Source: Verrucomicrobia bacterium ADurb.Bin006 (GTDB taxonomy: Bacteria; Verrucomicrobiota; Verrucomicrobiia; Limisphaerales; J093). From it: a stretch of 64,000 nt of DNA. Position 1 is the first letter of the stretch. Every line of letters begins with the position of its first letter. The stretch lies in the NCBI GenBank assembly GCA_002071485.1, contig MWFF01000055.1:1-64000 (forward strand), read 5' to 3'. Positions 34,360 to 56,100 of this stretch are shown here, piece after piece. Both the position numbers and the translations under genes were made by a program. Under the pieces are notes generated by a model that saw nothing but the letters and a program-made list of their open reading frames with translations, searched no databases and was not told the origin of the DNA.

Positions 34360-34702
34360 GTGGAGAAAGTGGTGGATGGTTGATGATTGTGTTCGGGTCG
34401 TACTGCTGTTCGGCCGTGGAGATGCCCTCGTCGTCCTGAAAAAGGAGTTCCGCCTCCCTCGGCGTCACCTCCCCCATGCTTCGAGCGCGCTTTGCGGCTC
34501 GTGGCCGCGCCTCGGCAATTCGCGGTGAATTTCATTTGCCCACGCGAATGCCGACTCGGACGACACTTTCGAGCTTAGGGTCCGTGCAAGAATCAATTCC
34601 GGTTTTGGCGGGAGCGCCACCGGGCCAGATGCGAGGCCCAAGGGAGGGAATGTATCCCCTGACTGGCCCGCGTTCATGCCGACGGCATCCTGGTTTGGCG
34701 CT
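34360..34702. other. Intergenic region with dispersed repeat
   Basis: About 340 nt. It holds one full copy of the TTAGGGTCCGTGCA element (34575-34639) and otherwise no convincing gene or CRISPR repeat, which matters because a Cas6-like gene ends at 34703. Confidence 0.5.
34575..34639 (+). repeat. Dispersed repeat 'TTAGGGTCCGTGCA', full copy
   Basis: 65 nt. The last 43 nt are identical to the complement of 46811-46875 and start with TTCCGGTTTTGGCGGGAGCG. The other end is TTAGGGTCCGTGCAAGAA. Shorter or diverged copies occur at 10266-10280, 32844-32857, 42306-42354 and 61450-61476. It may be an IS end or MITE. Confidence 0.7.
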
Positions 34703-35596
34703 TCAAGCGCTCTGAGCCGCAGTCGCTTCCTTGGCCGGACGAATGAACACGCCTGACCTGCCTTTCAAGTCATCCAGCGCTCGCGTGTACGTGGCCGGGT
34801 CGCAAAAAATCGGATCGAACCAGGGCCGATCGAAACGCAGCCGGTAGTGGCCTCGAGGACCCAGTTTCAGTCCCGCTCCGATCTCGGTCCCCAGCAGGAG
34901 CCACTGGCGCACGCTCGCCAGCGCTTGGGCCGTGCCGCGCAGAAAGAGCGGACCGACGTTGCCGGCGATCGTCTTGGTCCCCCGACCGCTCTTGGCCCGA
35001 TGCCGGTGCTCGACGAACCTCCAAAAGTGGCAAAGCGTGGTCAGAGTCGCCCAATCGGCCCGAGGCGGCGGGGCGGGGCAGACGAAGAAATGCTGGAACC
35101 GGTGCGCCAGCAGCCGGCCCAGGTCCGACGCTGCCAGCCACCACGGGCGTCGGCCATCCGCCGGGGTATAAGCAAACGGAGTCTCGAACTCGAGACAAAC
35201 TTCGGTGGCGCGCTCAGGCCACCGCGACGCAGCGTCCTCGAGGTCGGCCAACGACCGGACCTGCGGGGACTCGAGTTCCACGAGGGCGAAGTGGTGGCGT
35301 TTGTCGCTCAGATGACGCTCGAGTCCTGCCGCGCATGCACGGGCCAGCGCAAGGTCGTCCCCAGGAAAGAACACCGCAAAGGGGTAGAGACGGTCCCGCT
35401 CGATGACGTCGCCCGGCTCCGCCAGGGGGCGGAAGAGGAAGCGGCTTTGACCGTTCTTGGCCGCCTCGGGCACGCAGAACATCAGCAGGCTGTGCAGAAT
35501 CCAAAGCGGATGCTCTCGAGCTCCCGCTGCGTGGAGGTTGCGCACACTGCCCCGCAACCGCGTCCACCGCAGAGCAGCAAATGCGGCATCTTCCAT
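34703..35596 (-). CDS. Cas6-like RAMP protein, solitary
   Basis: 297 residues; start at 35596 (an ATG four codons upstream at 35608 is equally possible), since the longer frame upstream is the shadow of the FtsK gene. The N-terminal half has EHPLWILHSLLMF, FRPLAEPGDVIERDRLYPFA and VFFPGDD, as in Cas6 proteins. The C-terminal part, AGNVGPLFLRGTAQAL then LLLGTEIGAGLKLGPRGHYR, follows the Cas6 C-terminal pattern, including the Gly-rich loop. Cas6 cuts CRISPR precursor RNA. No other cas gene or CRISPR array is in the window. It lies 134 nt downstream of the secretion ATPase, and an intergenic repeat separates them. Confidence 0.65.
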   Translation of the reverse strand: MEDAAFAALRWTRLRGSVRNLHAAGAREHPLWILHSLLMFCVPEAAKNGQSRFLFRPLAEPGDVIERDRLYPFAVFFPGDDLALARACAAGLERHLSDKRHHFALVELESPQVRSLADLEDAASRWPERATEVCLEFETPFAYTPADGRRPWWLAASDLGRLLAHRFQHFFVCPAPPPRADWATLTTLCHFWRFVEHRHRAKSGRGTKTIAGNVGPLFLRGTAQALASVRQWLLLGTEIGAGLKLGPRGHYRLRFDRPWFDPIFCDPATYTRALDDLKGRSGVFIRPAKEATAAQSA

Positions 35597-35672
35597 GCTG
35601 CCGCGCATAGGGCGGACAGTCTGGCGAGGCGCGCCTGAGAAGACAAGCGCAGTCCTCTGCCCAACACGCGCA

Positions 35673-35734
35673 TTCCACATCCCGTCAGTGCACGGGGCGG
35701 GCCGATCTCGTATGATGTCCGCCATGCGGGTTAG
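35673..35734. repeat. Dispersed repeat 'ATGCGGGTTAG', copy with TTCCACATCCCGTC arm
   Basis: TTCCACATCCCGTCAGTGCA plus C at 35673-35693 matches the complement of 28198-28218 with one mismatch, and GATGTCCGCCATGCGGGTTA plus G at the right end recalls 24371-24397 and 28211-28228. It lies between the Cas6-like and FtsK-like genes, so it may be a mobile-element scar. Confidence 0.5.
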
Positions 35735-38700
35735 GCGGTGCGATCCGAGAGGAGGGTTTTGGCGCGGTCGAGCCAGGCCGGATCGGGCAGGGCATAGGGG
35801 CGGAAGGTTTCGAGCGATCCGGCCTGGGCGTTGTGCAGGACGGCCCGGTGCAGGCCGAGCGTGCTGGCCTTGGGACTGTCGATGAGGCTGGCCGAGTCGC
35901 TGGGGCTCATCTGGAAGAGGATGCGGAGTTCGAATTCGGTCAACGCGCGCCTGCTGAAGAACCGGCTCACGTTGTTGTAGGTGTCGCAGAGGCAGAGCGC
36001 GTGGAGACCGACATGCGCCCCTTCGCACAGGAGCCGGTTGAGTTCGCGCCCCGGATCGATCGTTTTCTCCTCGCTGTCGAGCGCCAGGCTGAAATCCTCC
36101 TCGAACCGCAGCCGCTTGAAGCGCTCGAGATGATGGATGCAGAGATAGACGGACGGAGCGGCCGCGGCGGCTTCGGGATCGCTGCGCGCGGCCAGTTCGG
36201 CGCCGACCACGCCCAGGGCGTCGTCGAGTTGGGTATTCCCCACCCAACGCACGTCGTGGGGGATTAAAGCCGTCACCCGTTCGAGGAAGGCCCGATGCGG
36301 CGCGGCCGCGGGGGTGGCATCCAGGAGGAGGAACCGCGCCGTGCCTGGCGGGTGCTGCGCGGCCAGAGCGATCAGGGCAAGCCCGAGCATCGCCAGGGCG
36401 GGCTCGTCGTATTGGCCGACAATCAGGACGTGGTTGCCGCTCTGACGATGGAGCGCGATTTCGGTGGGGCCTTTGATCGAGTTGGGCGCGCCCAGGTAAA
36501 TGCGGGGCGCGACGAGGCGCTCCTGTGGCCGGGCGCGCAGCAGTTCTTCGAGCAAGCGATTCTCGCGCACGTCGGCGGGTGCGTTGCCCTCGAAGACCAC
36601 CGGCGGGGGCGGCAATCCCGTGACCCGCTCCGCGCGGCGTTGGATTGTCTCGAGACAGACGTTTCGTTCGGCTTCGGGCAGCCAGACGATCTGGAAGGGG
36701 CTGTTGCCCTCGATCGCGCCGGCGGCGTCGTTGTAGATCGCCTCGCCCGGACGCGACAGGAGGTGCGGCGCGGCGTTGTCGTCGTCCATGATCAACATGG
36801 CGTCGGGCTGGTTGCACTGGAGAGCGATGCGGACGACCATTTGGCCGAGAGTGGTGCGTGTGAGCGTGTACGCTCCGCCCAGGGTTTGCGAACCGAGCAT
36901 GACGTGGATGCCGAAGGCGCGGCCTTGCCGCACCAGGCGGTCGAGCAGGAGGGCGGCGTTTTGGGCCACGCGATCGTCTTCGGTGAAGAACTCCTGGAAC
37001 TCGTCGATGATCAGGAGGGCGCGCGGGAGGCGGTTGTCCGGGGAGGCCCGGTGGTAGGCCGGCAGGTCCTGGACGCCGGCCTGCCGGAACAGGTCGCCGC
37101 GGCGCTGCAGTTCCTGGTCGAGGCGTTCGAGGACGCTTAGCCCGAACTCGCGATCGCTTTCGATGGCGACCACGCGGGCGTGGGGGAGCCGGCGCTCGCC
37201 ATAGCACTTGAACTCGACACCTTTCTTGAAGTCGACCAGGTAGAACTCGATCGCGTGCGGGCTGCACCAGAGGGCGAGATTGGTGACAAGGACGTGGAAG
37301 AGGGTCGATTTGCCCGAGCCCGTCTTCCCGGCGACGAGCGCATGCTGTCGGGTCCCTTTCCCGAGGGCCAGGTACTGGAGCTTGGTCGCCCCGGTAACGC
37401 CGATCGCCACGCGCAACTCATGGGTGGTGTCGAGTGTCCAGAGATTCTCCGTGTCGGGTGCAATCTCGGCGAACGGCATCTCGACGCGGTTCGAGTCCAC
37501 GCTCGCCTGTCCGAGGTTTGTGAGGATGGTCGTGACCGTCTCGGGCGGCGGCGGCTCTTCGAGGCGCAAAGGTATCCCTTCGAGGCGCGGGTCCTCGAGT
37601 TCGAAAGCCTGGTTCACCGCGGCGATTCGCGCCCCGGCTTTGCGCAAGTCCTCCGGCGCCGCCTCGGCCGGGAGCGGTTTGCGCCGGTCCCAGTGGAGCA
37701 GCAGAAACACGCCGCAACGCGGTCCGCTCGATGCGATGCTCAGGAGGCGCTTGGCGGCGGACTCGCTGAAGTTGACCGGGAAATCCGCGGCGACGAGGAA
37801 ATGATACGGCTCGGCGATGCGCCCGGCCTGGGCGTTGTAATCGGCGATCGTGGCGTACTCGTTGCGCAAATAGAGTTGCGTCACTTTCTCGATGTGTTCG
37901 TTGAGGTCGGCCAGGCGCTGCTCGATCTGATCGGGTTGGGTCCAGATGCGGCGGTTGATCAGGCGATCCTCGTGATCGCTGAGGTGCATCAGCCCCGCAA
38001 AGGTCTCCCCCAGGCCGACCGGGTCCAGGATCGTGAACAACACCCGTCCTGGCGGGGCGCTCATCAACAGTCGCAGGACCATGGCGTTCAGAGCCGCCAA
38101 GGCCTTGGCGCGTCCCCAGGCCTGCGTCTCGATGACGATCGAGCCCTGCTCGGGATGCTTCAGCAAGAGTCGCAGATCGAACTGCGCAGGCCCGGGCAAC
38201 ACCAGGCGCGGATCGGACGGCAGACCGCCGACATACGCCGCGACGTCCAGAGTCACAGAGGCGAATGGAGCCGCGGAGACTGATGCCGAGGGCGGCGACC
38301 AATCATCCCAAGACCGGCTTGCCCAGTCCGGGAAGCTCTCCGCAGCGGCGTTGCGCAGCCCCTCGAATGCGGCATAGGCCGTCCCGGTGACCTGCGCCCA
38401 ATCCCGCACCAGGGCTTGCGACGAGTCTTGAAGCGCCGTCCGCAATTCGCTCACCCGCCGCTCGCGCTCCTGTTCAAGGGCTGTCCGTTGCTCGGCGGCG
38501 GCCTGATTCAGGGCCGCGGCGCGCGCGGCGTGTTCCCTTTGAAGCCGATCCGAGGCGCGCAGCCGGAGCCGGTCGCCGCGACCCAGTGCCCGGTGAAGTT
38601 TGGTCCCCAGACTGGCCTTCAGTTCGGTCCGTTGCGCGGCGGCGGCGTCGACAGCCCGATGCCAGCGGTCTTCGAGGACTGAGTTTTTCGAACGGGCCTC

Positions 38701-39636
38701 CTCTTCGATGCGCTGTTGCTCCTGGGCGTGCTCGTTCCACGCCGCCTGTTCCCCGGCCTCGACCAGGTGCAGCGCCTGGCTCGATGCGGCCACCAGGGCC
38801 GCGGCGGTCGGGCGGGCAAGCTTCCGGGCCAACGCGTGCAAAGCGAAAAGGGCGACGAGCGAGACGGCGAGGGAGACGGCCAGCGGCTGCATGTGGCCGG
38901 GCTGGAACGTGGCATCGCGCAGGAGCGGGAGAATGGCGAGCAGCGCATGGCCTGCCACCAGCAGAACGGCGCAGAGCCAGGGCGACACCACCGTGAAGAG
39001 GCCCGGAAGCGGCGACCGGCGCAGGCGGCGAAGCTGGGCGTACGCTTCGTTCTGCCGATCGCGGCACAATTCGAGCATGTCTTTCGACCGCCCTGCGGGC
39101 GCGGGCCCCGGCGACGCGCAGGCCGACCTCAGTTTGTTGCGGTAGCAACGGAACCCGAGAAAGGCCCGGCCCGCTGCACGTTCCAGCTTCTCGACACGAT
39201 CCCGCTCGTCGGCCCATTCTTCTTTGAGGGAGGCGTAGGTGGCATCCGCAAGCTGCTGACCCGCCTGATGATCGCGGGAGACCTGAAGCATCTCGCGCTG
39301 GACGTGGAACACCTCGCGCGCTTCTTCGTCTCCGATGCGCTTGAGTTGTACCGATTCGACGGCCTGGCGAGCCTGGAGAATGCGCTCCTTGCGCCGGTCG
39401 TGTCGGGCCTGGCAGGCTGAGGCGGCCTGGCGGGCGGCTTCATCCTCGGCGACCATGTCGTCCGCGAGCCGCATGTTGGTCTCACGCAACGCCACATCCG
39501 TCTGGCGGTTCAATTTGGCGATGCGCTCTTTGAACTCGCCTTCGACCCGGCCCGCCGCTTCCCGGCAGCGCGCGATACCCTGCCTGAGCCGGGCCAGGTG
39601 ATCGAGGGTTGGTTCGAGACTCAGGAGGTTACTCAC
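35731..39636 (-). CDS. FtsK/SpoIIIE-family ATPase with three ATPase-like folds, ESX/EssC-like
   Basis: 1301 residues from a GTG start at 39636. A long coiled coil (residues 1-200) and a second (about 275-430) flank two membrane helices (about 212-272, LFTVVSPWLCAVLLVAGHAL and MQPLAVSLAVSLVALFALHA). Three FtsK/HerA-type folds follow: an inactive first (about 490-690), an active second with GKTGSGKST (Lys776) and LLIIDEFQEF (Asp878/Glu879), and a third with degenerate P-loop (LIVGQYDEPAL near 1065). EssC/EccC proteins of type VII secretion have the same two-helix plus three-ATPase plan. Here coiled coils replace the FHA domains of EssC. Confidence 0.85.
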   Translation of the reverse strand: MSNLLSLEPTLDHLARLRQGIARCREAAGRVEGEFKERIAKLNRQTDVALRETNMRLADDMVAEDEAARQAASACQARHDRRKERILQARQAVESVQLKRIGDEEAREVFHVQREMLQVSRDHQAGQQLADATYASLKEEWADERDRVEKLERAAGRAFLGFRCYRNKLRSACASPGPAPAGRSKDMLELCRDRQNEAYAQLRRLRRSPLPGLFTVVSPWLCAVLLVAGHALLAILPLLRDATFQPGHMQPLAVSLAVSLVALFALHALARKLARPTAAALVAASSQALHLVEAGEQAAWNEHAQEQQRIEEEARSKNSVLEDRWHRAVDAAAAQRTELKASLGTKLHRALGRGDRLRLRASDRLQREHAARAAALNQAAAEQRTALEQERERRVSELRTALQDSSQALVRDWAQVTGTAYAAFEGLRNAAAESFPDWASRSWDDWSPPSASVSAAPFASVTLDVAAYVGGLPSDPRLVLPGPAQFDLRLLLKHPEQGSIVIETQAWGRAKALAALNAMVLRLLMSAPPGRVLFTILDPVGLGETFAGLMHLSDHEDRLINRRIWTQPDQIEQRLADLNEHIEKVTQLYLRNEYATIADYNAQAGRIAEPYHFLVAADFPVNFSESAAKRLLSIASSGPRCGVFLLLHWDRRKPLPAEAAPEDLRKAGARIAAVNQAFELEDPRLEGIPLRLEEPPPPETVTTILTNLGQASVDSNRVEMPFAEIAPDTENLWTLDTTHELRVAIGVTGATKLQYLALGKGTRQHALVAGKTGSGKSTLFHVLVTNLALWCSPHAIEFYLVDFKKGVEFKCYGERRLPHARVVAIESDREFGLSVLERLDQELQRRGDLFRQAGVQDLPAYHRASPDNRLPRALLIIDEFQEFFTEDDRVAQNAALLLDRLVRQGRAFGIHVMLGSQTLGGAYTLTRTTLGQMVVRIALQCNQPDAMLIMDDDNAAPHLLSRPGEAIYNDAAGAIEGNSPFQIVWLPEAERNVCLETIQRRAERVTGLPPPPVVFEGNAPADVRENRLLEELLRARPQERLVAPRIYLGAPNSIKGPTEIALHRQSGNHVLIVGQYDEPALAMLGLALIALAAQHPPGTARFLLLDATPAAAPHRAFLERVTALIPHDVRWVGNTQLDDALGVVGAELAARSDPEAAAAAPSVYLCIHHLERFKRLRFEEDFSLALDSEEKTIDPGRELNRLLCEGAHVGLHALCLCDTYNNVSRFFSRRALTEFELRILFQMSPSDSASLIDSPKASTLGLHRAVLHNAQAGSLETFRPYALPDPAWLDRAKTLLSDRTA

Positions 39637-39841
39637 AGTCTCGCCTCACGCGTTGCAGCACGGATTCCAACTGTTCGATGGCCGGCAGTGTCGCGTTGAC
39701 CTCCGACTCGATCGCCCGGATGAACCGCTCCTCGAACTCGCGGGCCTTCGCATCCGCCCAACTGTCGCGGGTCTGATGCCATCGCTGCAGCAAATCCCGC
39801 GTCAGACTGCCCAGACGCGGGGCATGACCGCCGGGGCTCAT
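39629..39841 (-). CDS. Small coiled-coil protein of the FtsK operon
   Basis: 70 residues. The ATG at 39841 overlaps the previous stop (ATGA), and its own stop overlaps the GTG of the ATPase by 8 nt, so translational coupling is strong. The sequence is helical (SLTRDLLQRWHQTRDSWADA, EFEERFIRAIESEVNATLPA). The size and helical character recall WXG100-type partners, but no WXG is seen. Probably a component of the same apparatus. Confidence 0.7.
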   Translation of the reverse strand: MSPGGHAPRLGSLTRDLLQRWHQTRDSWADAKAREFEERFIRAIESEVNATLPAIEQLESVLQRVRRDCE

Positions 39842-40425
39842 ATGGACTCTCCTTGTCCCGATTGCTCCCCGGCGCCGGGCACGGGTGCGGGGCCGGCATC
39901 GGGCCCGATCGAGGGCGGCACTGCCGGCTGCGATGCCGCGGGTCGCGACGCGGCTTCGTGACCGGCGTAATCTCGCAGGATGGCGGCTGCGGTTTCGAGG
40001 GAATGAGCAGCGCGGTTCCCTTCGTTTGACAACATGTGCTGAAGCCGGCGCGGCAAGGCCGCTCGAGCCTCGACGTCGGTGGCGTATCGCAGGAGCCAAC
40101 GGCGAACCCGGTCGCGACCCTCCTCGGCGCGGCGCAAGGCGTCGCGGGCTTTGGCCACGGCCCTCTTCCGGTCGAGGATCGCGCCGGAGTCGCCGGACAA
40201 CCGGGCGGTCATCAATTCCTGTTCTGCCTGGGCGGCCGCGGCGGTGCAGAGGCGAATCTCGCGCTTCCAATGGACCCGCCGATCCGTCTCGAGCCAGATG
40301 CGGGTCCGGACGATGTCCTGCGTCACCTCGTCGAGAACCGACCGGCTTCGGGTCAAGTAGAGCAGCAGGCTGCTCCGAAACGATTCGAGCGCGTCGATCG
40401 AGCTGACTTTGGCTCCGGAATTCAT
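39838..40425 (-). CDS. Coiled-coil protein of the FtsK/WXG100 operon
   Basis: 195 residues. Long alpha-helical N-terminal region (IDALESFRSSLLLYLTRSRS, AQAEQELMTARLSGDSGAIL, KARDALRRAEEGRDRVRRWL) and a Pro/Ala-rich tail (VPPSIGPDAGPAPVPGAG). It starts 21 nt after the WXG100-like gene and overlaps the next gene. No recognised family; likely a structural or chaperone-like component of the secretion locus. Confidence 0.7.
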   Translation of the reverse strand: MNSGAKVSSIDALESFRSSLLLYLTRSRSVLDEVTQDIVRTRIWLETDRRVHWKREIRLCTAAAAQAEQELMTARLSGDSGAILDRKRAVAKARDALRRAEEGRDRVRRWLLRYATDVEARAALPRRLQHMLSNEGNRAAHSLETAAAILRDYAGHEAASRPAASQPAVPPSIGPDAGPAPVPGAGEQSGQGESI

Positions 40426-40446
40426 GGACCAGTCGAAGCCGCCTCT

Positions 40447-40719
40447 CTAGCGCTGCGCCAGGTAATCCTCGATCCGCCGGGCCTTGCGCAGCAGGAACGG
40501 AACATGCTGATGCGAAATCTCGATGAACTTGGCCAGCGCCCGCAGCGTGCGCTGAAACTCTTCGCTGAACCGGATATGTTCCTGGTCTTGCCAGGTGTCG
40601 CCCAAAGCCTTGAAGCGCGCCTGCAACGACATCAGCCTGTCCTGCGTGTCCTGGTTGAAACGCTTCAACTCCTCGGCGAAGCGCCGAACTTCAACGGGAT
40701 CAATGATCGCTTGCGACAT
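40447..40719 (-). CDS. WXG100-like protein
   Basis: 90 residues; the start at 40719 leaves out an upstream extension of no clear sense. Helix-turn-helix pattern with a Trp at the turn: FKALGDTWQDQEHIRFSEEF, then a second long helix (FQRTLRALAKFIEISHQHVP). The TW-x-D turn stands where ESAT-6/WXG100 proteins have WxG. WXG100 proteins are substrates and cofactors of FtsK/SpoIIIE ATPases in type VII secretion. Here it is the first gene of the operon, before two coiled-coil proteins and the ATPase. Confidence 0.75.
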   Translation of the reverse strand: MSQAIIDPVEVRRFAEELKRFNQDTQDRLMSLQARFKALGDTWQDQEHIRFSEEFQRTLRALAKFIEISHQHVPFLLRKARRIEDYLAQR

Positions 40720-40936
40720 GGGAACCGCCCAAAAACACGCCCGGCGCCCGCTCGATATGCCCGGAACGGCGCCTGGCGGACGGCACCTTACCAGCAACCT
40801 ACGGGCCACGCAAACGCCATTTCCGACAACGCGTTCGACCGACGCATCTGGTTGTTGTTGGCGCGATGCCGCCCCGCCCCGGAGGGCTGGAGGGCTTTGG
40901 CTCGCTGGTCCCCCGGTTGCACATACGCATCACGTG

Positions 40937-42427
40937 TCAGTCCTGCAGCTTCGATGGAATCCCGTTATTCCTCGCAAGGGAAGCGAAGATTCCTAGTACC
41001 GACAACACCGAAAAAATGCCGAAGCCGGTTCTCATTCCCGCCAGGAGCCTTGAGTAATTTGCAGGATCGATCTGTTCTTTTCCGAGGTAGACGGAAATAA
41101 GCATCATGGCAATTCCCATACTCAACATCTGCCCTGTCATTCTCATTGTTCCCACAACTCCCGAAGCAACTCCATAATGGCTCTTTTCAACCGAACTCAT
41201 TATTGCATTCGCATTGGGAGAGCTGAAAAGGCCGAATCCCACGCCCATAATAACCAGCAGGCTTACAATCATTATCAGGTGACTCCTTTCATTTACGAAG
41301 CACAGCATTACCAGGCCCGCAGCCGTAAGCCCCATGCCGTATGATGCTATTACCCCCGGATTGCGCCTGTCCGACAGCCTTCCTGCCAGAGGCGACAGCA
41401 AAGCCATCATTACAGGCTGGGAGATCATTATGAATCCTGCCGTCCTGGCATCAAATCCCTTCAGGTACTGAAGGTAAAGGCTGATGAAGAACCCTGTTGC
41501 TGAAGTTGCGGAATAATGAATCAGCGCGGCAATGCCGGAAAAGGCAAAAACCTTGTTCTGCAACATCAGGCGGATATCAAAGACCGGATTGTCGATTCTC
41601 TTTTCATACATAAAGAACAATGTTCCCAGTACGATACCGGAGAGAATCAATATCCAGCTTGTGACCGACGGCAGCGTCGAAAATCCGTATATAAGGGAAA
41701 ACAATGAAATGGCGTAAAACATCGATCCTGCCGTGTCGAATCTTTCTGTCCGGGAATCGGCCCACTCATCCTTTATCTTTAGCTTTATCAGCACCAGTGA
41801 GGCTATTCCAAAGGGAACAAGAAAGGCGAAAATACTTCTCCAGCCCAGGTATTGGGTAAGAAATCCGCCAATTATCGGACCTGCCGATAGTCCGAGATAT
41901 ACTGCGGTGACGTTTATCCCCATAGCCCGGCCCCTTTGACCGGGTTCAAACACCGAAGTAATTATGGCAAGGCTTGTGCCGAAGATCATCGCGCTGGATA
42001 TCCCCTGGCATATCCTCATTACAATGAGGAAAGCAAAGGATCTGGAAAAAACAATTATGATCGTTGACAGTGTGAACAATAATAATCCGGCGCTAAATAC
42101 TCTCTTCCTTCCCACTATGTCAGCAAGCTTGCCGAACGGTATCAGAGAAATTGCCGACGACAGGATAAAGCTGCTTATTACCCATCCCATTTCGATTGCA
42201 CTTGCACCAAGATCCTTCCCGATCGATGGCAATGCAAGATTTACGGATGATCCGAGGAATGGGGTCAGGAATGCCGCAAAAGCAGCAACGATCAGAACTG
42301 CTTTCTTAGGGTCCGTGCAAGAACTACATCCGATTTTGCCGGAGGGGATTTGGGACAGACCCTTAAGCTCCCTTTCCGAAGTAGTCTCATGGTTATTATG
42401 CATCGAATTGTTGGTCAGACACGCCAT
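40937..42427 (-). CDS. MFS drug/multidrug transporter (DHA2/EmrB-QacA type), AT-rich
   Basis: 496 residues. The N-terminal ~48 residues look unrelated to transporters; homology starts at DPKKAVLIVAAFAAFLTPFL, SSVNLALPSIGKDLGASAIE, motif A GKLADIVGRKRVF and AGPIIGGFLTQYLGWRSIF, with about 14 membrane helices as in EmrB/QacA. It probably exports small toxic compounds by proton antiport. Codon and base use are clearly AT-richer than all neighbours, with many ATA/ATT and AAT codons, so it was likely acquired from another phylum. The N-terminal extension is partly encoded by a dispersed repeat (42306-42354). Confidence 0.88.
   Translation of the reverse strand: MACLTNNSMHNNHETTSERELKGLSQIPSGKIGCSSCTDPKKAVLIVAAFAAFLTPFLGSSVNLALPSIGKDLGASAIEMGWVISSFILSSAISLIPFGKLADIVGRKRVFSAGLLLFTLSTIIIVFSRSFAFLIVMRICQGISSAMIFGTSLAIITSVFEPGQRGRAMGINVTAVYLGLSAGPIIGGFLTQYLGWRSIFAFLVPFGIASLVLIKLKIKDEWADSRTERFDTAGSMFYAISLFSLIYGFSTLPSVTSWILILSGIVLGTLFFMYEKRIDNPVFDIRLMLQNKVFAFSGIAALIHYSATSATGFFISLYLQYLKGFDARTAGFIMISQPVMMALLSPLAGRLSDRRNPGVIASYGMGLTAAGLVMLCFVNERSHLIMIVSLLVIMGVGFGLFSSPNANAIMSSVEKSHYGVASGVVGTMRMTGQMLSMGIAMMLISVYLGKEQIDPANYSRLLAGMRTGFGIFSVLSVLGIFASLARNNGIPSKLQD
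42306..42354 (+). repeat. Dispersed repeat copy at the edge of the MFS island
   Basis: TTAGGGTCCGTGCAAGAACT then ACATCCGATTTTGCCGG matches the family at 34575 and 46811. It starts at the exact point where the AT-rich MFS coding sequence ends, so the MFS reading frame runs out into the repeat. Confidence 0.65.
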
Positions 42428-42534
42428 CCACTCTGCTCGCGGTCGGGCGCCGGTCCGTTCCAGAACGGCAGGATGCGATTGAACATGTGGTCGCTGTCCT
42501 GTTTAGCGAAGGCTTGGATCTCGGCAGCATTCAT
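42415..42534 (-). pseudogene. Possible N-terminal fragment of an AGE-family protein
   Basis: A 39-residue frame, MNAAEIQAFAKQDSDHMFNR then ILPFWN and DREQSGW, resembles the start of AGE-family epimerases ('LP FW ... D ..GG'). It ends at once near 42415, before the MFS island. This is a weak assignment. Confidence 0.25.
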
Positions 42535-42770
42535 GGGGCAAAGGTGTATTCGGTTTTCAGCGCGTCCGCAATAGCCGCGTTGCGTCGATAGCCAGAGAGA
42601 TTCCACATCTTGCGCGAAGTCGAGCAGGCGCGCGGGCCAAAACCATGTCGTCCGACACGTGTCAAATCGCGGCTTGACACACAACGCCCGGCGGGTGCGG
42701 AATGGCCGGCGACGAGCTTGGAAGCTAATGTAATTGCCGTGAATCTTGCAGGGCCAACACCACTCTCCCG
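42428..42770. other. Region between the MFS gene and the YCF48-like gene
   Basis: Apart from the short AGE-like fragment (to 42534), nothing convincing is visible; the frames that cross it are short and do not agree with one another. Confidence 0.4.
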
Positions 42771-45089
42771 ATGAAGACAACATTGCGGTTCATCATGATC
42801 GTGTTCGCAACCGTGGTTGGTTTGCGCGCAATCGGCGAACCAAGCTGGCATTTCGAGTTCAGCGGAGGCCTCCCGGTCAAGCTGGTGTGGCAGGCGCAAC
42901 CCGGAGAGACGAGTTATCTTCGTGAGAGCACGAACCTGTTATCGTGGAGTCAGGTCGCAGGTTTCCCCAAGGTCGCTGAGGGGACGGTGATGGAGTACGC
43001 GTTCACTCCCGGAGCGCAACGCTTCTTTGAAATCGGCAAGGCCGAGGCTCGCAGTGGCGGGTGGCAGCAGATGGCTGTTCCGGCGTTGGCTGCTGGTGAA
43101 TGGTACGAGTTCGCGGCGGTGAGCGCACTTAACCCGCTCCAGGTCTGGATTGCCGGGAGCGTCCGCCCTATGCACGATTCTTGCGTGTTGCGCAGCGAGA
43201 ACGGTGGCGGAGCGTGGGCGCAGGTCTATCGAGAGGCGAACGCCGGATTTTTCGGCGACCTGCAAATGGTATCAGCGGAGACAGGCTACGTGGCGGGCGG
43301 TTGCTTGCGTCGCACAACGGACGGCGGCACCACTTGGCCGTTTGACCAGGGGAATCTCCCCGATCCGCCCGGGACCTGGCATAACGTCGGACCCGACGGC
43401 TATGTCTATGGCATGGCGGTCGTCTCCGCAGACGAACTTTGGACGGCGGGATACGACGGCGCTTCTGCGGGCGTGATCTATCATCGCGTGCCTGGTCGTT
43501 CCCAAACGAATCCTGTGAATAGCAACACGCCTTGGTGGCTGGAGTGGGCGCAAGAACGCACCGGGATGTATGGGGTCAGCGCAGCGACGCCGACGATCGC
43601 CTGGGCGGTCGGCTATGGCGGGAATATCTGGCGAACAACCGATGGTCAAAGCTGGGGCCAACAGGTTTCGCCCACCCCGTCAGCGCTCCAGGACGTTGTG
43701 GCGGTGGACACCAACACGGTTTGGGCCGTGGGAGATGGCGGGACAATCGTCAAGACGACCAATGCGGGCGCGCTTTGGCTGCCGCAGGTTTCGGGTACCA
43801 CCGAAGGACTCCGCCGGATTGCAGCCGTGAATTCCAACGTAGCTTGGGCAGTCGGCAGCGCGGGGGTCATCCTTCATACCAGCGATGGCGGTGCATCCTG
43901 GCAGCGGCAGTTTTCCGGGACCACGGCTGCACTGCTTGGCGTGGCCGCTGTGGACAGCCAGACCGCTTGGGTTGTGGGCGGAGAGAATGTCATTCTGCGC
44001 ACGACCGACGGTGGCGCCGGTGCGTGGCCAACCCCCGCCATCAGCGGGGTCAGTCCGAACGTGGTGGGCGCCTCCAGTTGGCCGCTCATTACGCTGACGG
44101 TTTCGGGGACAGGATTCCGCGGGGGCAATCTGAGCGCCAAGATTGGCAACGAGCCCGTCGCGGATGTTGTGTGGCTCAGCGAATCCACTGTGCAAGTCGT
44201 TGCACCCTGGCTTCCAGCCGGAACTTACGATCTCACCCTCGTGAATGAGGATGGACAGCAGGCGACGCTGCCGCGAGGGATTATCGTCATGCCTGAACCG
44301 TTGGCGGCGCGCTTCAGCCCGTGGCATGGCATGGCGGCGGGTGGGTATCAGATCACGATTGACGGCTATAACTTGCGAACGGTCACCGACGCTATACTGC
44401 ATCTCAGCGGGGCCGATCCCGAAACTCTGCCTTTCAACGTGGTGGATTCAACTCGCGTGCTTGTGACACTCCCGGCCTCCGCAACACGACTGGTCGGGCA
44501 GGCCACCTTGGAGCTCCGGACAGCACAGCAACAGTCGGCAGTGGTTAGCGATTTTTTGCTTGATGCTTCCAGCGAACCAGCATTTGCCATCAACTCGATC
44601 ACGCCGGCAAGCGGGCCATCCCTGACTGAGGTGACCGTCAGCGGCATCGGATTCAGCACCAACGCTACGTTAGAGATTTGCGACCGCAATGTGATCCTCA
44701 CTAGTCGAAGCACGACGGAACTCGTCGGAAAGGTTTTCGGCAACCAATGGGGGATCGGCAGGTTGGTTTTGATGAACAACGAGAGTGAGGACATCAGCAT
44801 CGATCCCGCGTTTCTGCTCATCGAGGGTCCAGTCCCCACGCTCACACTGGTGACGCCGAATTCGGCTTCGTCGGCGGGCGGGGCAACGGTGACGCTTGTC
44901 GGCACTGGTTTCGTCACCACGGACACCGTGACATTTGACGGCTATCCGGCCGAGGTGACTTCTCGCACCTCCAGCTCAATGGTGGTCAAAATCCCGACTC
45001 ATGCCCCAGGCGTGGTCAGCGTCTTTGTTATGACGGACGGACTGGAGCGCGGTGCGGCGGAACTGCCTGGAGGATTTACTTATCACTGA
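42771..45089 (+). CDS. Exported YCF48-like beta-propeller plus TIG-domain protein
   Basis: 772 residues with an N-terminal hydrophobic segment (LRFIMIVFATVVGL). Residues about 90-425 form BNR/YCF48-like blades with repeated 'VWAVG..G.I..T.DGG..W' text (TVWAVGDGGTIVKTTNAG, VAWAVGSAGVILHTSDGGAS). The second half has TIG/IPT-like beta sandwiches (ISGVSPNVVGASSWPLITLT, INSITPASGPSLTEVTVSGI, TPNSASSAGGATVTLVGTGF). Similar proteins occur as surface or assembly factors; the exact role is unknown. It faces a convergent prepilin-like gene. Confidence 0.75.
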   Translation: MKTTLRFIMIVFATVVGLRAIGEPSWHFEFSGGLPVKLVWQAQPGETSYLRESTNLLSWSQVAGFPKVAEGTVMEYAFTPGAQRFFEIGKAEARSGGWQQMAVPALAAGEWYEFAAVSALNPLQVWIAGSVRPMHDSCVLRSENGGGAWAQVYREANAGFFGDLQMVSAETGYVAGGCLRRTTDGGTTWPFDQGNLPDPPGTWHNVGPDGYVYGMAVVSADELWTAGYDGASAGVIYHRVPGRSQTNPVNSNTPWWLEWAQERTGMYGVSAATPTIAWAVGYGGNIWRTTDGQSWGQQVSPTPSALQDVVAVDTNTVWAVGDGGTIVKTTNAGALWLPQVSGTTEGLRRIAAVNSNVAWAVGSAGVILHTSDGGASWQRQFSGTTAALLGVAAVDSQTAWVVGGENVILRTTDGGAGAWPTPAISGVSPNVVGASSWPLITLTVSGTGFRGGNLSAKIGNEPVADVVWLSESTVQVVAPWLPAGTYDLTLVNEDGQQATLPRGIIVMPEPLAARFSPWHGMAAGGYQITIDGYNLRTVTDAILHLSGADPETLPFNVVDSTRVLVTLPASATRLVGQATLELRTAQQQSAVVSDFLLDASSEPAFAINSITPASGPSLTEVTVSGIGFSTNATLEICDRNVILTSRSTTELVGKVFGNQWGIGRLVLMNNESEDISIDPAFLLIEGPVPTLTLVTPNSASSAGGATVTLVGTGFVTTDTVTFDGYPAEVTSRTSSSMVVKIPTHAPGVVSVFVMTDGLERGAAELPGGFTYH

Positions 45090-45287
45090 GGGTCGCCGCG
45101 GTTGCCCGAGCATTGATCGTGGAAGTCACAAGTGTGCCGACGAGAAACCGCCTCTTGGTTTTGTGGCTCAGCGACTGTCGCGGAAACGAACGAAGAATCT
45201 CCACTCTGCCGACCTCGGTCTCGCCGGTGAAAGCCACTTACAAATCTGGTTCATGTCACCGGCGGCAGGTTTGTGCTTCCTTGCGGG

Positions 45288-46196
45288 TCAGCGGTTCAAC
45301 GGATCGTTCAGACCGTTCCAGTTGCCGTTGTCCCGTACGCCATCGCGGTTGGAGTCGTCAATTTCCTTGATCCCCATGGCCACGGCGTGGCAATCGACAA
45401 AAACGAACTCGGGCCTGCCGTTGTTGCGCGGGGCGGGATAGGCGCGCACCTTCCAGTCGTACGGACCGGGGCTGGGCGTTTCGATCACATCGTCGACGCC
45501 TTCGTAATATCCTGCAAGTTTTGCACCCAGATTCAGGGAAGGCAGCGGCGGCTCGAGCGCGTAAGGCGCCTCGGGCTTGCCGGTGAAAACACCACCTTTC
45601 GATTTCGAGCCGGCGGTATCCCCCACGAGCACCGTACTGGTCGGCTGGCGGATGTCGGCGTCCATCCGGGCGCTATATCCGGGCTTTCCATGCTCGCCGG
45701 TGGCATACCCCAGGTAGTGCAGGTTGTAACCGTAACCGCCGTAAATGAACTGCCGATACCCGTCAATGCCGAACGGCCGCGAAAAATTCGCACTGGCAAT
45801 TTGCTCGACAGTCAGAAATGGACTCAGGAACACCTTGGGTTGGGGCGCGTAGCGCACCATTTGGTCGGGCCAGTGAGTTTTGACCGATTTATCCAATCCC
45901 AAGTCCTTTCCATCCTGGCGGTCGATGATCGCCCCTTGGTAGTAATAGCCTTCGTGATGGGTAAAATACCCTGAGTTGTCGTCCAGATACATCTGATTGG
46001 CGATGCCGATTTGCCGCAGGTTGTTGAGGCTCGCTACACCCTTGGCGGCGTTTTTTGCACGACCCAGCGTGGGTAGCAGCAATGCCGCCAGGATGGCGAT
46101 AATGGCAATGACTACCAGCAGCTCGATCAAGGTAAAGCCCCGCAGCCGAAAGCGGCGACAGTCGGTTTGCGCAACGGTTACATCAATGGACTTCAT
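45288..46196 (-). CDS. Prepilin-type secreted protein
   Basis: 302 residues. After a 20-residue basic leader comes [20 protein letters not shown] and [20 protein letters not shown], as in verrucomicrobial type IV prepilin-like paralogues. The body has [19 protein letters not shown] and [20 protein letters not shown], i.e. the C-terminal H-x-DG-like region. It is the second paralogue of this kind in the window (first at 24776). Function as a pseudopilin is likely, but the partner system is not here. Confidence 0.8.
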
Positions 46197-46376
46197 GCCG
46201 ACCTTCTATTATTAGGTTCTATAACGTTTACGAATAGAATTTTGCTTTTTTCGACGTGTCTGGAGTGTGCCCGGACAGGTGGCCCTGGGCAAGGCGAAAG
46301 ACCGGGGGAATTGTCCCCTGCAAGTGCCTGGCTGGCCTTCCGGGGCTGGTGGGCGGCCGCCCCCAACTGGTTCACC

Positions 46377-46640
46377 GTGCCTGTGGGCCATATGCAGGTA
46401 GCCCAACTGCTACACGAGCAGCACTACAGTCTGCAGAGCAACCGGAAGCCGGCGGAGGGGGAGGACCACCCCGAGCGGGACGCCCAGTTCGCGCATATCA
46501 ACCGGTGCGTAAAGCGGGCCTTGGCGGCGGGTTACCCGGTCATCTCGGCGGACACCAAGAAGAAGGAACTGGTGAGCAATTACGCCAACGACGGTCAACA
46601 GTGGCGTGTGGCCAAGCAACCCCGAGCGGTCAAAGGGCAC
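46377..46640 (+). pseudogene. ISAzo13-family (Rhodopirellula-type) transposase fragment
   Basis: One frame reads MQVAQLLHEQHYSLQSNRKP, then HPERDAQFAHINRCVKRALA, PVISADTKKKELVSNYANDG and WRVAKQPRAV. This matches the middle of ISAzo13 transposases, including the 'VISxDTKKKELVGxYxNxG' block with its catalytic Asp. It is cut at about 46640, after which another frame (46606-46857) with no clear identity runs into a dispersed repeat. Both ends of the transposase are missing, so it is inactive. Confidence 0.7.
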
Positions 46641-46810
46641 GCCTTCCCGGGGCCGGGTCCGGTTCATCGTCGGGACGGAGGCGCGCGAGTGCCCGTTCGG
46701 CCCGTTGCCCAAAGGCGATTCGATCCTGGAAGCGGTCTGGTCCGAACTCGACCGCCTCGAGCGAGAGGATGCTGGCGGGTACACTTTTCTCCTTATCGAG
46801 GATTGTCCTC

Positions 46811-46875
46811 GGGCCTCGCATCTGGCCCGGTGGCGCTCCCGCCAAAACCGGAAGTAGTTTTTGCACGGGGCCTAA
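46811..46875 (-). repeat. Dispersed repeat 'TTAGGGTCCGTGCA', inverted copy
   Basis: Complement of the 34575 copy, identical over 43 nt. It ends the decayed ISAzo13 segment, which suggests that the repeat is an end of an IS or a MITE derived from one. Confidence 0.65.
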
Positions 46876-46986
46876 GCCGGCTGGAAGCCGGCGCTCCGGG
46901 ATGCCTCACGCACTGTCGAACAGGCTCGTGCCCGTGCAGCTTACTGCCTAGTCGGCTAGATATCCTGCACAGACCCCTCACGCCGG

Positions 46987-53100: not shown

Positions 53101-56100
53101 CCCCCAGGTGTCGGCGTTGTCGATCAAGACGCGCCCTGTCGTTTCGCCGGCGAATCTCGCATAGATCGTCCCCGCTCCGCCGGCTTGGCGTCCCGGCGCT
53201 CCTCCTCGGGCGCTGACTGTTCCCGTAAATTCATCGGCCCCGAGGTAGAAGGCGATTCGTCCGCCGCCGCCGCTGCCCCCATCCACCCACTCGCCCTTGC
53301 CACCGATGGCGGACACGGCACCTGCGCCGGCGAGTTTTTCGGCGGTGATCCAGATGCTGCCGCCGGCCGCGCCTCCCTGGTTGTCGTACCAGGAGGAAGT
53401 CCCGTTGGCCGAGAGGGTGCCATCCAACTCGAGGGTGCCGCCCACGACCAGGCGGATCGCCCCGCCGCCGGGGCTGCGCGCGCCGGTTCCGCCGCCGCTC
53501 GAACCCAGATGCACCGGCTCGATGACAGAGCCGTAGGCAAGACCCCCTGCGGCACCAGAAAGGCTCACGCCGCCGTTGCCGCCGTGCGCGCCGCCGCCGC
53601 CGCAACAGCCGAGCGATTCACCCGCCCCGGGGCCGGGGTCGCCCTCCAGTGGGTAGCCCTTGCCGTCGGCGGTGATCGCCGCCCCGCTTTCCACTGAAAG
53701 GTCTCCAGCCACATGGACCGTGAGATTCGATTGGCCGGTGATGTGCGTAAGCGTGGCCCCCGACTTGAGGAGCAGGCTGACCAGCTCGAGCGGACCGGTG
53801 GGGTAAAAGACCGAGCCCCCGCCGAGGACAAGGCGCGTGTTCGCCGGGACGTCGAACGGACTCAAGGCCCCTGCATTGCCGCCGTTGTCCAAGACCAACT
53901 CGCCTGTCGCCTGTCCAGTCAGCTTGGTGTAGATGCTGCCCGAGCCGCCGCGCTGGTGCCCTCCGCCGCCTCGCGCCGCCAGGTCACCGCTGAATGCCAC
54001 CGCATCGGCGTAGAGCGCGATCCGCCCGCCGGCGCCGCCGCCCCCATCCACCCACTCGCCCGCGCCGCCGTCAGCGAGGATGGCGCCTTTGCCGGCAATG
54101 GTCTTGGCCGTGAGATAAAGGCTGCCGCCGGCCCCGCCACCGCTATTGTTACTGACGCCGTTCAGGCCTTGGGCCGTCACCCGACCATCAATCGTGAGAA
54201 GGTTGGCGACATTCAAGCGCACCACGCCGCCGCCCGCGCCGCCCGCGCCGCCGTCGCCGGGACCGCCTGCGCTCCCATGCTCGAGAGGCTCGGTGATCGA
54301 GCCGTAAGGCGCGCCACCCGCGGCGCCCAAAATGGTTGTTCCACCGGTGCCGCCGTGGCCGGCGCCGCTGCCGCCCCAATCCAGGCGCACCCCTGCCCCC
54401 GGGCCGAGGTTGCCATCGATGGGATAGCCGCGTCCGTCTGTCGAAATGCTGCCGCCTTCGGCCACAGTGAGGTTGTTGAGGACCGTGATCTCGCATCGGG
54501 CCTGACCGGTGAGATGGGTGAGCACGGCGTTGGTCCGCACTTCAAAGTCGCGGACCGTGAGCGGTTCGGCATGGTAGCAATAGGCCATCTCGGCCAGGGT
54601 AAGCTGGAACGGCTCGGGCGACGTCAGCGGGGTGTAGTTGCCCCTGACACCGCCGTTGCTGATGAGGAGTTGACCGAAGGCCGAGCCGCGCTTGCGAGTG
54701 TAAACGGTGCCCGCTCCGCCCCGCTGGTGTCCTCCATTTCCGAACGCAGTGATGATGCCGGCGAACTCGTTGAAATCGTAGTATAGGGCAATGCGTCCGC
54801 CGCCACCGCCGCCCCCATCCACCCATTCGCCCGGACCGCCATTCGCCGTAATGCGGCCTGTGCCGGCCAGCTTGGCCACGGTGAGCCAAACGCTGCCGCC
54901 GGCGCCGCCGCCGGCGTTGTTGGGAGGGTTCGCGGCGCCGTTGGCGTTCAGGGCGCCATCGACTCTGAGAGTGCCATCCACGATCAGGCGGATCGCGCCG
55001 CCGCCGGCCGTGCCTGGGCCGCCGTCGGCATCGCCTCCCTGGCTGCCAAGAAGCGTCGGTTCGAGCATCGATCCGTAGTGGATCGTCGGTCCCGCGCTGC
55101 TCCCGCTCCAGCCGCCCAGACCACCGTGGCTCCCCCCTGAACCACCCCAACTCACCCGGATGCCCGTGCCGGGTCCGCGGTCTTTGCCGATCGGATAACC
55201 GCGCCCCTCGACCGACAGGGCGGAATTAGTGCCGACGATCAGGTCGCCGACGACGTGGAGGGTGACGTTCGACTGCCCGGTCAGGTGTGTCAGGACGGCT
55301 TCGCCGGGCAATTCGAGGCGCGTGAAAATGAGAGCGCTCTCGGGGTACAACCATGCGCGTCCGGTGAGAGTCGCACGCAGCGCTTCGGGTGTTTGAAGCG
55401 GTGTGTAGGTGCCCCAGGTGCCGCCATTGTCGACGAGCAGGTGGCCTTGGGACTCGACGGCGCCCTTGGTGTATATGGTCCCGGCCCCGCCGCGTTCATG
55501 GCCGCTCGCGCCGTACGCCGTGATCGCGCCCGAGTAATCCCTGCTCGTGTAATAGAGCGCAATGCGCCCGCCCCCGCCGCCACCACCGTCCACCCACTCG
55601 CCCGCGCCGCCGTTGGCGGAGATCGTTCCGGCGCCAGACAGTGAACCGACGGTCAGCCAAATGCTGCCGCCCGACCCGCCGCCGGCGTTATCCGGCGGCG
55701 CCCCGGCGCCGTTGGCCGACAGGCGCCCGTCCAGGGTCAGTGTGCCGTCCACGATCAGGCGTATCGCGCCGCCGCCGGCTGTGCCTGGGCCGCCGCTGCC
55801 ATCGCCTCCCTGGCTGCCCAGGGCCGTGGGTTCGAGCAAGGAACCGTAGTAGCTGCCACCGACTGCTCCGCTGCCACTGCGACCGCCCAAGCCGGCGTGG
55901 CCGCCGCCGGACCCGCCCCAACTGTAACGCGAACCGGCGCCTGGGCCGCGGTCTTCACCGATGGGATAGCCGCGTCCATCGACGGTGAACTGGGCGGGCG
56001 CGGCGATAGAGGCGTTGCCGGTGACGCGCATGTGGATGTTGGACTGGCCCTGCAGATGCGTGAGGACGGCCTCATTGGGCATGGTGAATTGGGTGACCGT

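Follow-up and report, generated by a model that had tools for sequence, protein, structure and literature searches.

The window analysed here, a stretch of 64,000 nucleotides from contig MWFF01000055.1 of Verrucomicrobia bacterium ADurb.Bin006, contains a toxin-free, membrane-anchored cassette of four genes that encode an EccC/EssC-like ATPase, two proteins of the WXG100 type or similar to it, and a long helical hairpin protein. This form, which is new, is complete in 69 of the 71 loci that were informative and has no conserved neighbour. That it belongs to the 'middle-active' WXG100/ATPase module is nearly certain. In terms of function, we lean towards the view that the cassette is a stand-alone membrane-anchored WXG100/EssC-like module, whose ATPase would export the complex of hairpin proteins through the inner membrane; this is favoured because of the analogy with EccC/EssC and with the LXG-Lap complexes (PMC9600955).

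The initial annotation of this DNA had claimed four minus-strand genes running from position 40719 to 35731, and ORFs were found at these positions (Table 1). Their spacing is also as claimed, viz. a 21-nt gap followed by overlaps of 4 and then 8 nt.

Table 1. Coordinates of the cassette and of its parts in the window.
Feature	Position	Strand	Basis or remark
Gene 1, 90-aa WXG100 protein	40447-40719	minus	W-x-D turn in place of W-x-G
Gene 2, 195-aa long two-helix hairpin with Pro-rich tail (predicted)	39838-40425	minus	AF2 model
Gene 3, 70-aa second WXG100-like protein	39629-39841	minus	motif W-x-D-x5-F
Gene 4, 1301-aa FtsK/EccC-like ATPase, GTG start	35731-39636	minus	HMM and Foldseek
ATPase membrane helix 1, residues 221-239 (predicted)	38920-38976	minus	hydropathy 2.52 (Kyte-Doolittle)
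ATPase membrane helix 2, residues 252-270 (predicted)	38827-38883	minus	hydropathy 2.33 (Kyte-Doolittle)
ATPase fold a, degenerate, residues ~500-714	37495-38139	minus	AF2; without Walker motif
ATPase fold b, active site, residues ~741-1004	36625-37416	minus	AF2 and Walker motifs
Walker A GKTGSGKS, residues 770-777, fold b	37306-37329	minus	
Walker B D878/E879, fold b	37000-37005	minus	
ATPase fold c, degenerate, residues ~1045-1299	35740-36504	minus	AF2; without Walker motif
Discrete 5.08-kb unit	35746-40822	minus	blastn of L143 against the window, 91.6%

A few other features of the window are recorded here. Immediately 3' of the ATPase gene lies an ORF on the same strand (34703-35605), the product of which has a Gly-rich end (GAGLKLGPRGHYRL). 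By eye it had been considered to be Cas6/RAMP-like, but this was rejected, as searches of Pfam, NCBIfam and the PDB yielded zero matches; the ORF is absent from the other cassette loci. A dispersed repeat of ~70 bp is present at 46807-46877 and 34573-34643, the two copies being 90% identical, and partially at 42305-42342; many copies of it (84-98%) are found in a genome from the same genus (G001) and it is also present in genome G004. Additionally, a 25-bp sequence (TCCACCCACTCGCCCGCGCCGCCGT) occurs three times within 2.3 kb, at positions 54047, 55589, and 56360.

The relationship of the ATPase to EccC/EssC is indicated by several comparisons of its sequence and its predicted structure. In an HMM scan, the protein from the window scored 112 bits with TIGR03924 (EccCa), 85 with EccCb, 80 with EssC and 20 with FtsK; the best of these values is far under the EccC/EssC equivalog cut-offs (112 vs. 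509), which counts against an export function. The EccCa, EccCb, and EssC models outscored FtsK in all five of the family ATPases that were scanned, the homolog from Helicobacter giving 153 bits vs. 46 for FtsK. Similarly, in a sequence search of the PDB, the EccC protein of Thermomonospora curvata (4nh0) scored 103 bits, EccC5 90 and FtsK 34. The AF2 model of residues 470-1301 (pLDDT 87, pTM 0.80) consists of three FtsK folds, and the top Foldseek match to it was again the EccC structure 4nh0 (E 2.5e-30), with the EccC and EssC structures ranging from 2.5e-30 to 4.9e-17 and followed by FtsK at 2.6e-15. The two membrane helices, three folds and one P-loop (Lys776) that had been read from this 1301-residue protein agree with the hydropathy analysis, the AF2 model and a comparison of 30 ATPases from the Verrucomicrobiota, Pseudomonadota, Campylobacterota, Actinomycetota, and Deinococcota. 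Exactly two hydropathy peaks were observed in 82 of 100 relatives. K776 and D878/E879 are unchanged, and folds a and c are without Walker motifs, in all 30 sequences. Coiled coils stand where EssC has its FHA domains, as the initial annotation had also stated.

The active fold b, which is named D2 in an earlier study (PMC11090510), is EccC D1-like by sequence (107.7 bits for EccC D1, 54 for D2 and 20 for D3), with one EssC alignment (L142) fitting D2/D3, whereas fold c is nearest to EccC D2 (Streptomyces EccC). A Bacillota FtsK/SftA-like protein gave a score of 107.0 with fold b, and this fold alone cannot distinguish FtsK from EccC; chromosomal FtsK is ruled out by the whole-protein scores together with the phylogenetic tree for fold b. 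In this tree, which is based upon a dataset without Bacillota EssC or HerA sequences and contains long branches that make the exact neighbour uncertain, the family formed one clade (99/97) that was distinct from both the actinobacterial EccC D1 and another clade comprising FtsK, SspH, and Tcp. Grouping of the ATPase with FtsK or HerA, and a 90-aa gene that was not conserved, had been named beforehand as observations that would speak against a T7SS-like locus; what was found is an ATPase outside the FtsK clade, with HerA compared by weak HMM scores only, and a 90-aa gene that is the best conserved of the four. Based upon these results, the ATPase is best described as EccC/EssC-like in sequence and predicted fold, although it stays under the cut-offs for membership and forms a separate clade that does not include FtsK.

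The protein encoded by gene 1 scored 32.2 bits with Pfam PF06013 (cut-off 27.3), which places it in the WXG100 superfamily, and 23.9 with NCBIfam TIGR03930, under the cut-off of 44.85. Hence, the pairing of a T7SS-like ATPase with a WXG100 protein that was suggested initially is upheld. Gene 1 is 90 aa long in all 97 copies and W-x-D is present in each of them, W-x-G in none. Of the C-terminal motifs for export, YxxxD/E and FxxxD were found in 0/97 copies and hxxxD/Exxhxxxh in the C-terminal half of 8/97; this near-absence of known export motifs is counted against export. The description of the two middle genes as coiled-coil genes has to be corrected for gene 3. When an HMM of gene 3 was searched against 11,835 ORFs, 97 of the top 100 non-self matches were gene 1 proteins, which rules out that it is a mere coiled-coil filler, and the profiles of the two genes also matched each other (hhalign, E 3.3e-4). 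The motif W-x-D-x5-F is common to them, being present in 97/97 gene 1 and 101/101 gene 3 proteins. Gene 3, which had zero matches in Pfam, is thus to be regarded, on sequence grounds, as a second WXG100-like partner protein. Gene 2 is predicted by AF2 (pLDDT 88.7) to form an antiparallel hairpin (H5-77 and H80-160) followed by a disordered Pro-rich tail; its fold has no significant match in the PDB, and no domain beyond the hairpin, including any toxin domain, was detected by Pfam or AF2. We refer to it as a putative carrier.

A scan of contigs identified 585 stretches encoding relatives, of which the best 80 loci, mainly from the Verrucomicrobiota and Lentisphaerae, were retained. Among the non-redundant loci for which 1300 nt or more of upstream sequence is available, 69 of 71 have the complete set of four genes, conserved in order and strand; of the remaining two, L065 is without gene 1 and L053 without genes 1 and 2. 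The 4-nt overlap was seen again in 60/73 loci and the 8-nt overlap in 46/74. This linkage, the recurrence of which had been named beforehand as support for a T7SS-like locus, is far above the chance level. Clustering of the flanking ORFs from the best 80 of the 585 loci revealed no conserved neighbour or further subunit. The mean identity is highest for gene 1 (71%), vs. 38% for gene 2, 41% for gene 3 and 49% for gene 4, and the pairwise distances calculated for gene 1 correlate with those for gene 4 (0.77; Mantel p 0.001). Between the window and a copy from the same genus, dN/dS was 0.026 for gene 1, 0.245 for gene 2, 0.067 for gene 3 and 0.169 for gene 4.

The ATPase was detected in 30/58 relatives, or in 23/36 if only the good-quality genomes are considered, and gene 1 was detected in only 20 of 388 genomes sampled evenly across the phylum; the cassette is therefore common in the order to which the window belongs and sparse elsewhere. 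In those of the 58 relatives that hold the ATPase, genes 1 and 2 occur as one copy per genome, the few exceptions (G008, G039, and G049) probably being due to contig ends. Except for an extra weak WXG match in G005 (23 bits), no separate cargo sharing a domain with gene 1 or gene 2 was found in the 58 relatives, and this lack of second copies is counted against export. Carriage by viruses was also considered and rejected, since viral contigs contained no WXG relative and the ATPase matches in phage records extend over no more than 44% of its length.

Some relatives of the cassette carry nucleases. On a Helicobacter sp. plasmid (L136:9408-13810), a WXG protein is followed by a protein with a WHH nuclease toxin domain (44.6 bits, cut-off 25.1), a SUKH immunity protein (29.1, cut-off 25.4), a protein of 77 aa and the FtsK-like ATPase; this operon is a T7SS-like toxin locus of a Gram-negative bacterium. 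The coiled-coil protein of L135, which is on a Caballeronia plasmid, and those of L140 and L141, both from the Verrucomicrobiota, have a C-terminal TKTD...EVK (D-ExK) nuclease-like region. In all four of these loci the nuclease fusion occupies the slot of gene 2, and the presence of nuclease toxins in this slot in plasmid and second-copy relatives (WHH with SUKH in Helicobacter, D-ExK in Caballeronia) is likewise new. By its position and helical character, gene 2 appears to be the counterpart of these toxin carriers, although direct HMM scores are weak, which counts against export. The earlier suggestion that two small proteins replace EsaA/EsaB/EssA/EssB is not supported, as gene 3 is WXG100-like and gene 2 is a hairpin in the nuclease-toxin slot of the plasmid relatives. 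The loci L135 and L141 are surrounded by genes for vWA proteins and a CARF protein (Card1-like in L141), with PP2C and kinase genes in Caballeronia, and loci of their type match the EssC-like extension of the Type III-A CoCoNuTs (PMC11090510). G269, a genome from farther away in the phylum, contains both systems, viz. the four-gene cassette (L142) and the nuclease-bearing locus L141:7666-16858, the latter being flanked by R-M-like genes, vWA and the Card1-like CARF protein. On plasmids of Deinococcus and Rhodococcus (L138:7201-7629 and L139:10241-10852), a protein with a C-terminal hydrophobic segment adjoins the ATPase gene and perhaps represents, in split form, the membrane anchor that is fused to the ATPase in the window.

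ATPases of this type have been described previously, as has their WXG100 partner. A footnote from 2012 (PMC3482391) reported the same type of ATPase with a solo WXG protein, the Verrucomicrobia being among the hosts, but gene 2, gene 3 and the membrane helices, all present in the window, are unnamed there; toxins in T7SS neighbourhoods are recorded in that paper only for Firmicutes, Actinobacteria, and Chloroflexi. PMC11090510 credits the stand-alone form to Anantharaman 2012. The 'mobile T7SS' module of these two studies (PMC3482391, PMC11090510), with three FtsK folds and Walker A/B in the middle one only, corresponds to what was observed in 30/30 ATPases. The proposal of an undescribed variant was accordingly too broad as regards the ATPase and its WXG100 partner, but it stands for the toxin-free membrane-anchored four-gene form. 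With the Type III-A CoCoNuT extension (PMC11090510), the cassette shares an N-terminal coiled coil on the ATPase, activity confined to the central fold, two WXG100 proteins (one without WxG) and a coiled-coil protein. In contrast to the window, the ATPase of this extension is without membrane helices, its coiled-coil protein bears a D-ExK nuclease and it is flanked by vWA and CoCoNuT genes; neither the D-ExK region nor a flanking vWA gene is present at the window cassette. The Gram-positive systems T7SSa-T7SSj (PMC11217815) likewise have a membrane-bound FtsK-type ATPase and WXG100 proteins, and in the simplest of them, T7SSg, there are also two WXG100 proteins and FHA domains are lacking. Two features of the T7SS core (PMC11217815) were observed here, namely two N-terminal membrane helices of the ATPase, based upon hydropathy, and a WXG100 protein encoded with the ATPase in 69/71 loci. 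The window differs from these systems in its diderm host, the single active site in the middle fold, the helical hairpin of gene 2 and the lack of a YukD-like protein or other subunit. The LXG effectors of T7SSb with Lap1/Lap2 (PMC9600955) share with it a helical carrier and WXG100-like partners, whereas the cassette has no LXG family match or FxxxD motif, and gene 2 has no toxin domain. The text of the V. spinosum essential-gene paper mentions neither WXG nor secretion.

The location of the cassette was also compared between genomes. A 17.9-kb contig of the same-genus genome G001 has only the 5.08-kb unit in common with the window (91.6% over 5077 bp), which begins 103 bp ahead of gene 1 and ends shortly before the ATPase stop. 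The genes adjoining the cassette in G001, which end in a gyrase B/parE-type gene, are syntenic in the genome of the window (92-95% identity) but on a different contig, and the flank of the window at 40937-46900 was not found in G001, repeats excepted; hence, the cassette occupies different sites in the two genomes. Its divergence between them is similar to that of the neighbouring genes of G001. A clean empty site 3' of parE in the genome of the window was looked for and not found, as the sequence following parE is unlike that following the cassette in G001. This observation of different sites with the same 5.08-kb borders in two same-genus genomes, made on draft assemblies in which misbinning of contigs is possible, is new and, together with the lack of conserved neighbours and the patchy distribution within the family, accords with mobility of the cassette.

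For the export that we favour, we infer complex formation, a hexamer, translocation and its direction as follows. The products of genes 1 and 3 would dock onto the long hairpin of gene 2, for which the docking of Lap1/Lap2 on LXG proteins provides a precedent (PMC9600955). The ATPase, presumably a hexamer anchored via its two membrane helices, would recognise this complex, and ATP hydrolysis in fold b would push it across the inner membrane. The gene 2 of plasmid relatives carries a C-terminal nuclease and has an immunity gene alongside; as gene 2 ends here in a disordered tail, it would be the complex of hairpin proteins that serves as cargo. Points in favour of this model are the lead of EccC/EssC over FtsK in the HMM and fold searches, the WXG100 match of gene 1, the occurrence of one gene 1 and one gene 2 in the genomes that have the ATPase, the nucleases in the gene 2 slot of relatives and the LXG-Lap precedent. 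In addition to the points noted above, it is counted against export that some relatives (L135 and L141) are without membrane helices, that the hosts are diderms in which no route through the outer membrane was seen, and that YukD/EsaB and YukC/EssB were each found in 0/30 relatives, while the B. subtilis control was positive. EccB was also found in 0/30 relatives, but the control genomes gave no signal for it either. A further-reaching version, which we think unlikely, is that a complete diderm protein translocation machine, built from a single ATPase and three small hairpin proteins without a toxin or T7SS membrane subunit, would serve the cell's own use (envelope or contact) and not the killing of competitors, the nuclease-armed plasmid versions being the same machine with a weapon added.

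Of the other explanations, the one that survives best, although we consider it somewhat unlikely, is a non-secretory module that acts at the inner membrane in intracellular conflict or defence; its ATPase would remodel or release the hairpin complex upon a trigger such as the entry of a phage or plasmid. The vWA, CARF/Card1, PP2C and kinase genes next to the nearest toxin-bearing relatives and the resemblance of the latter to CoCoNuT extensions are consistent with such a role, as are the matches of the PADLOC SspH/mad8 models to fold b and the occurrence of the cassette as a discrete unit at differing sites. However, the four-gene form has no such partners or conserved neighbour in the best 80 of 585 loci, and it possesses membrane helices and no nuclease. 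Descent from a true T7SSa/b system by loss of the accessory membrane subunits is improbable: the EccC D1-like active fold, the two membrane helices and the WXG100 protein fit with it, but the family branches as a separate clade outside the EccC D1 sequences of actinobacteria, and its architecture and active-site placement are unlike those of EccC/EssC. It is very improbable that the ATPase is a DNA pump akin to FtsK or to the ATPases of conjugation or partition. The nearly equal scores of fold b could be cited for this, but the protein as a whole matches EccC/EssC better in the HMM and fold searches; FtsK, SspH, and Tcp sit in another clade; and the ATPase gene is linked to no conserved mobility gene but nearly always to WXG100 proteins.

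The T7SS is usually regarded as a Gram-positive system with membrane subunits that are specific to individual phyla. A strongly constrained set of four genes recurring in the Verrucomicrobiota would demonstrate that few components are required in addition to the ATPase and the WXG100 proteins. Through the plasmid loci of Helicobacter and Caballeronia, this branch, which has attracted little attention, is linked with nuclease toxins of Gram-negative bacteria, and the cassette would provide a small, testable model of the movement of hairpin cargo by EccC/EssC-type ATPases.
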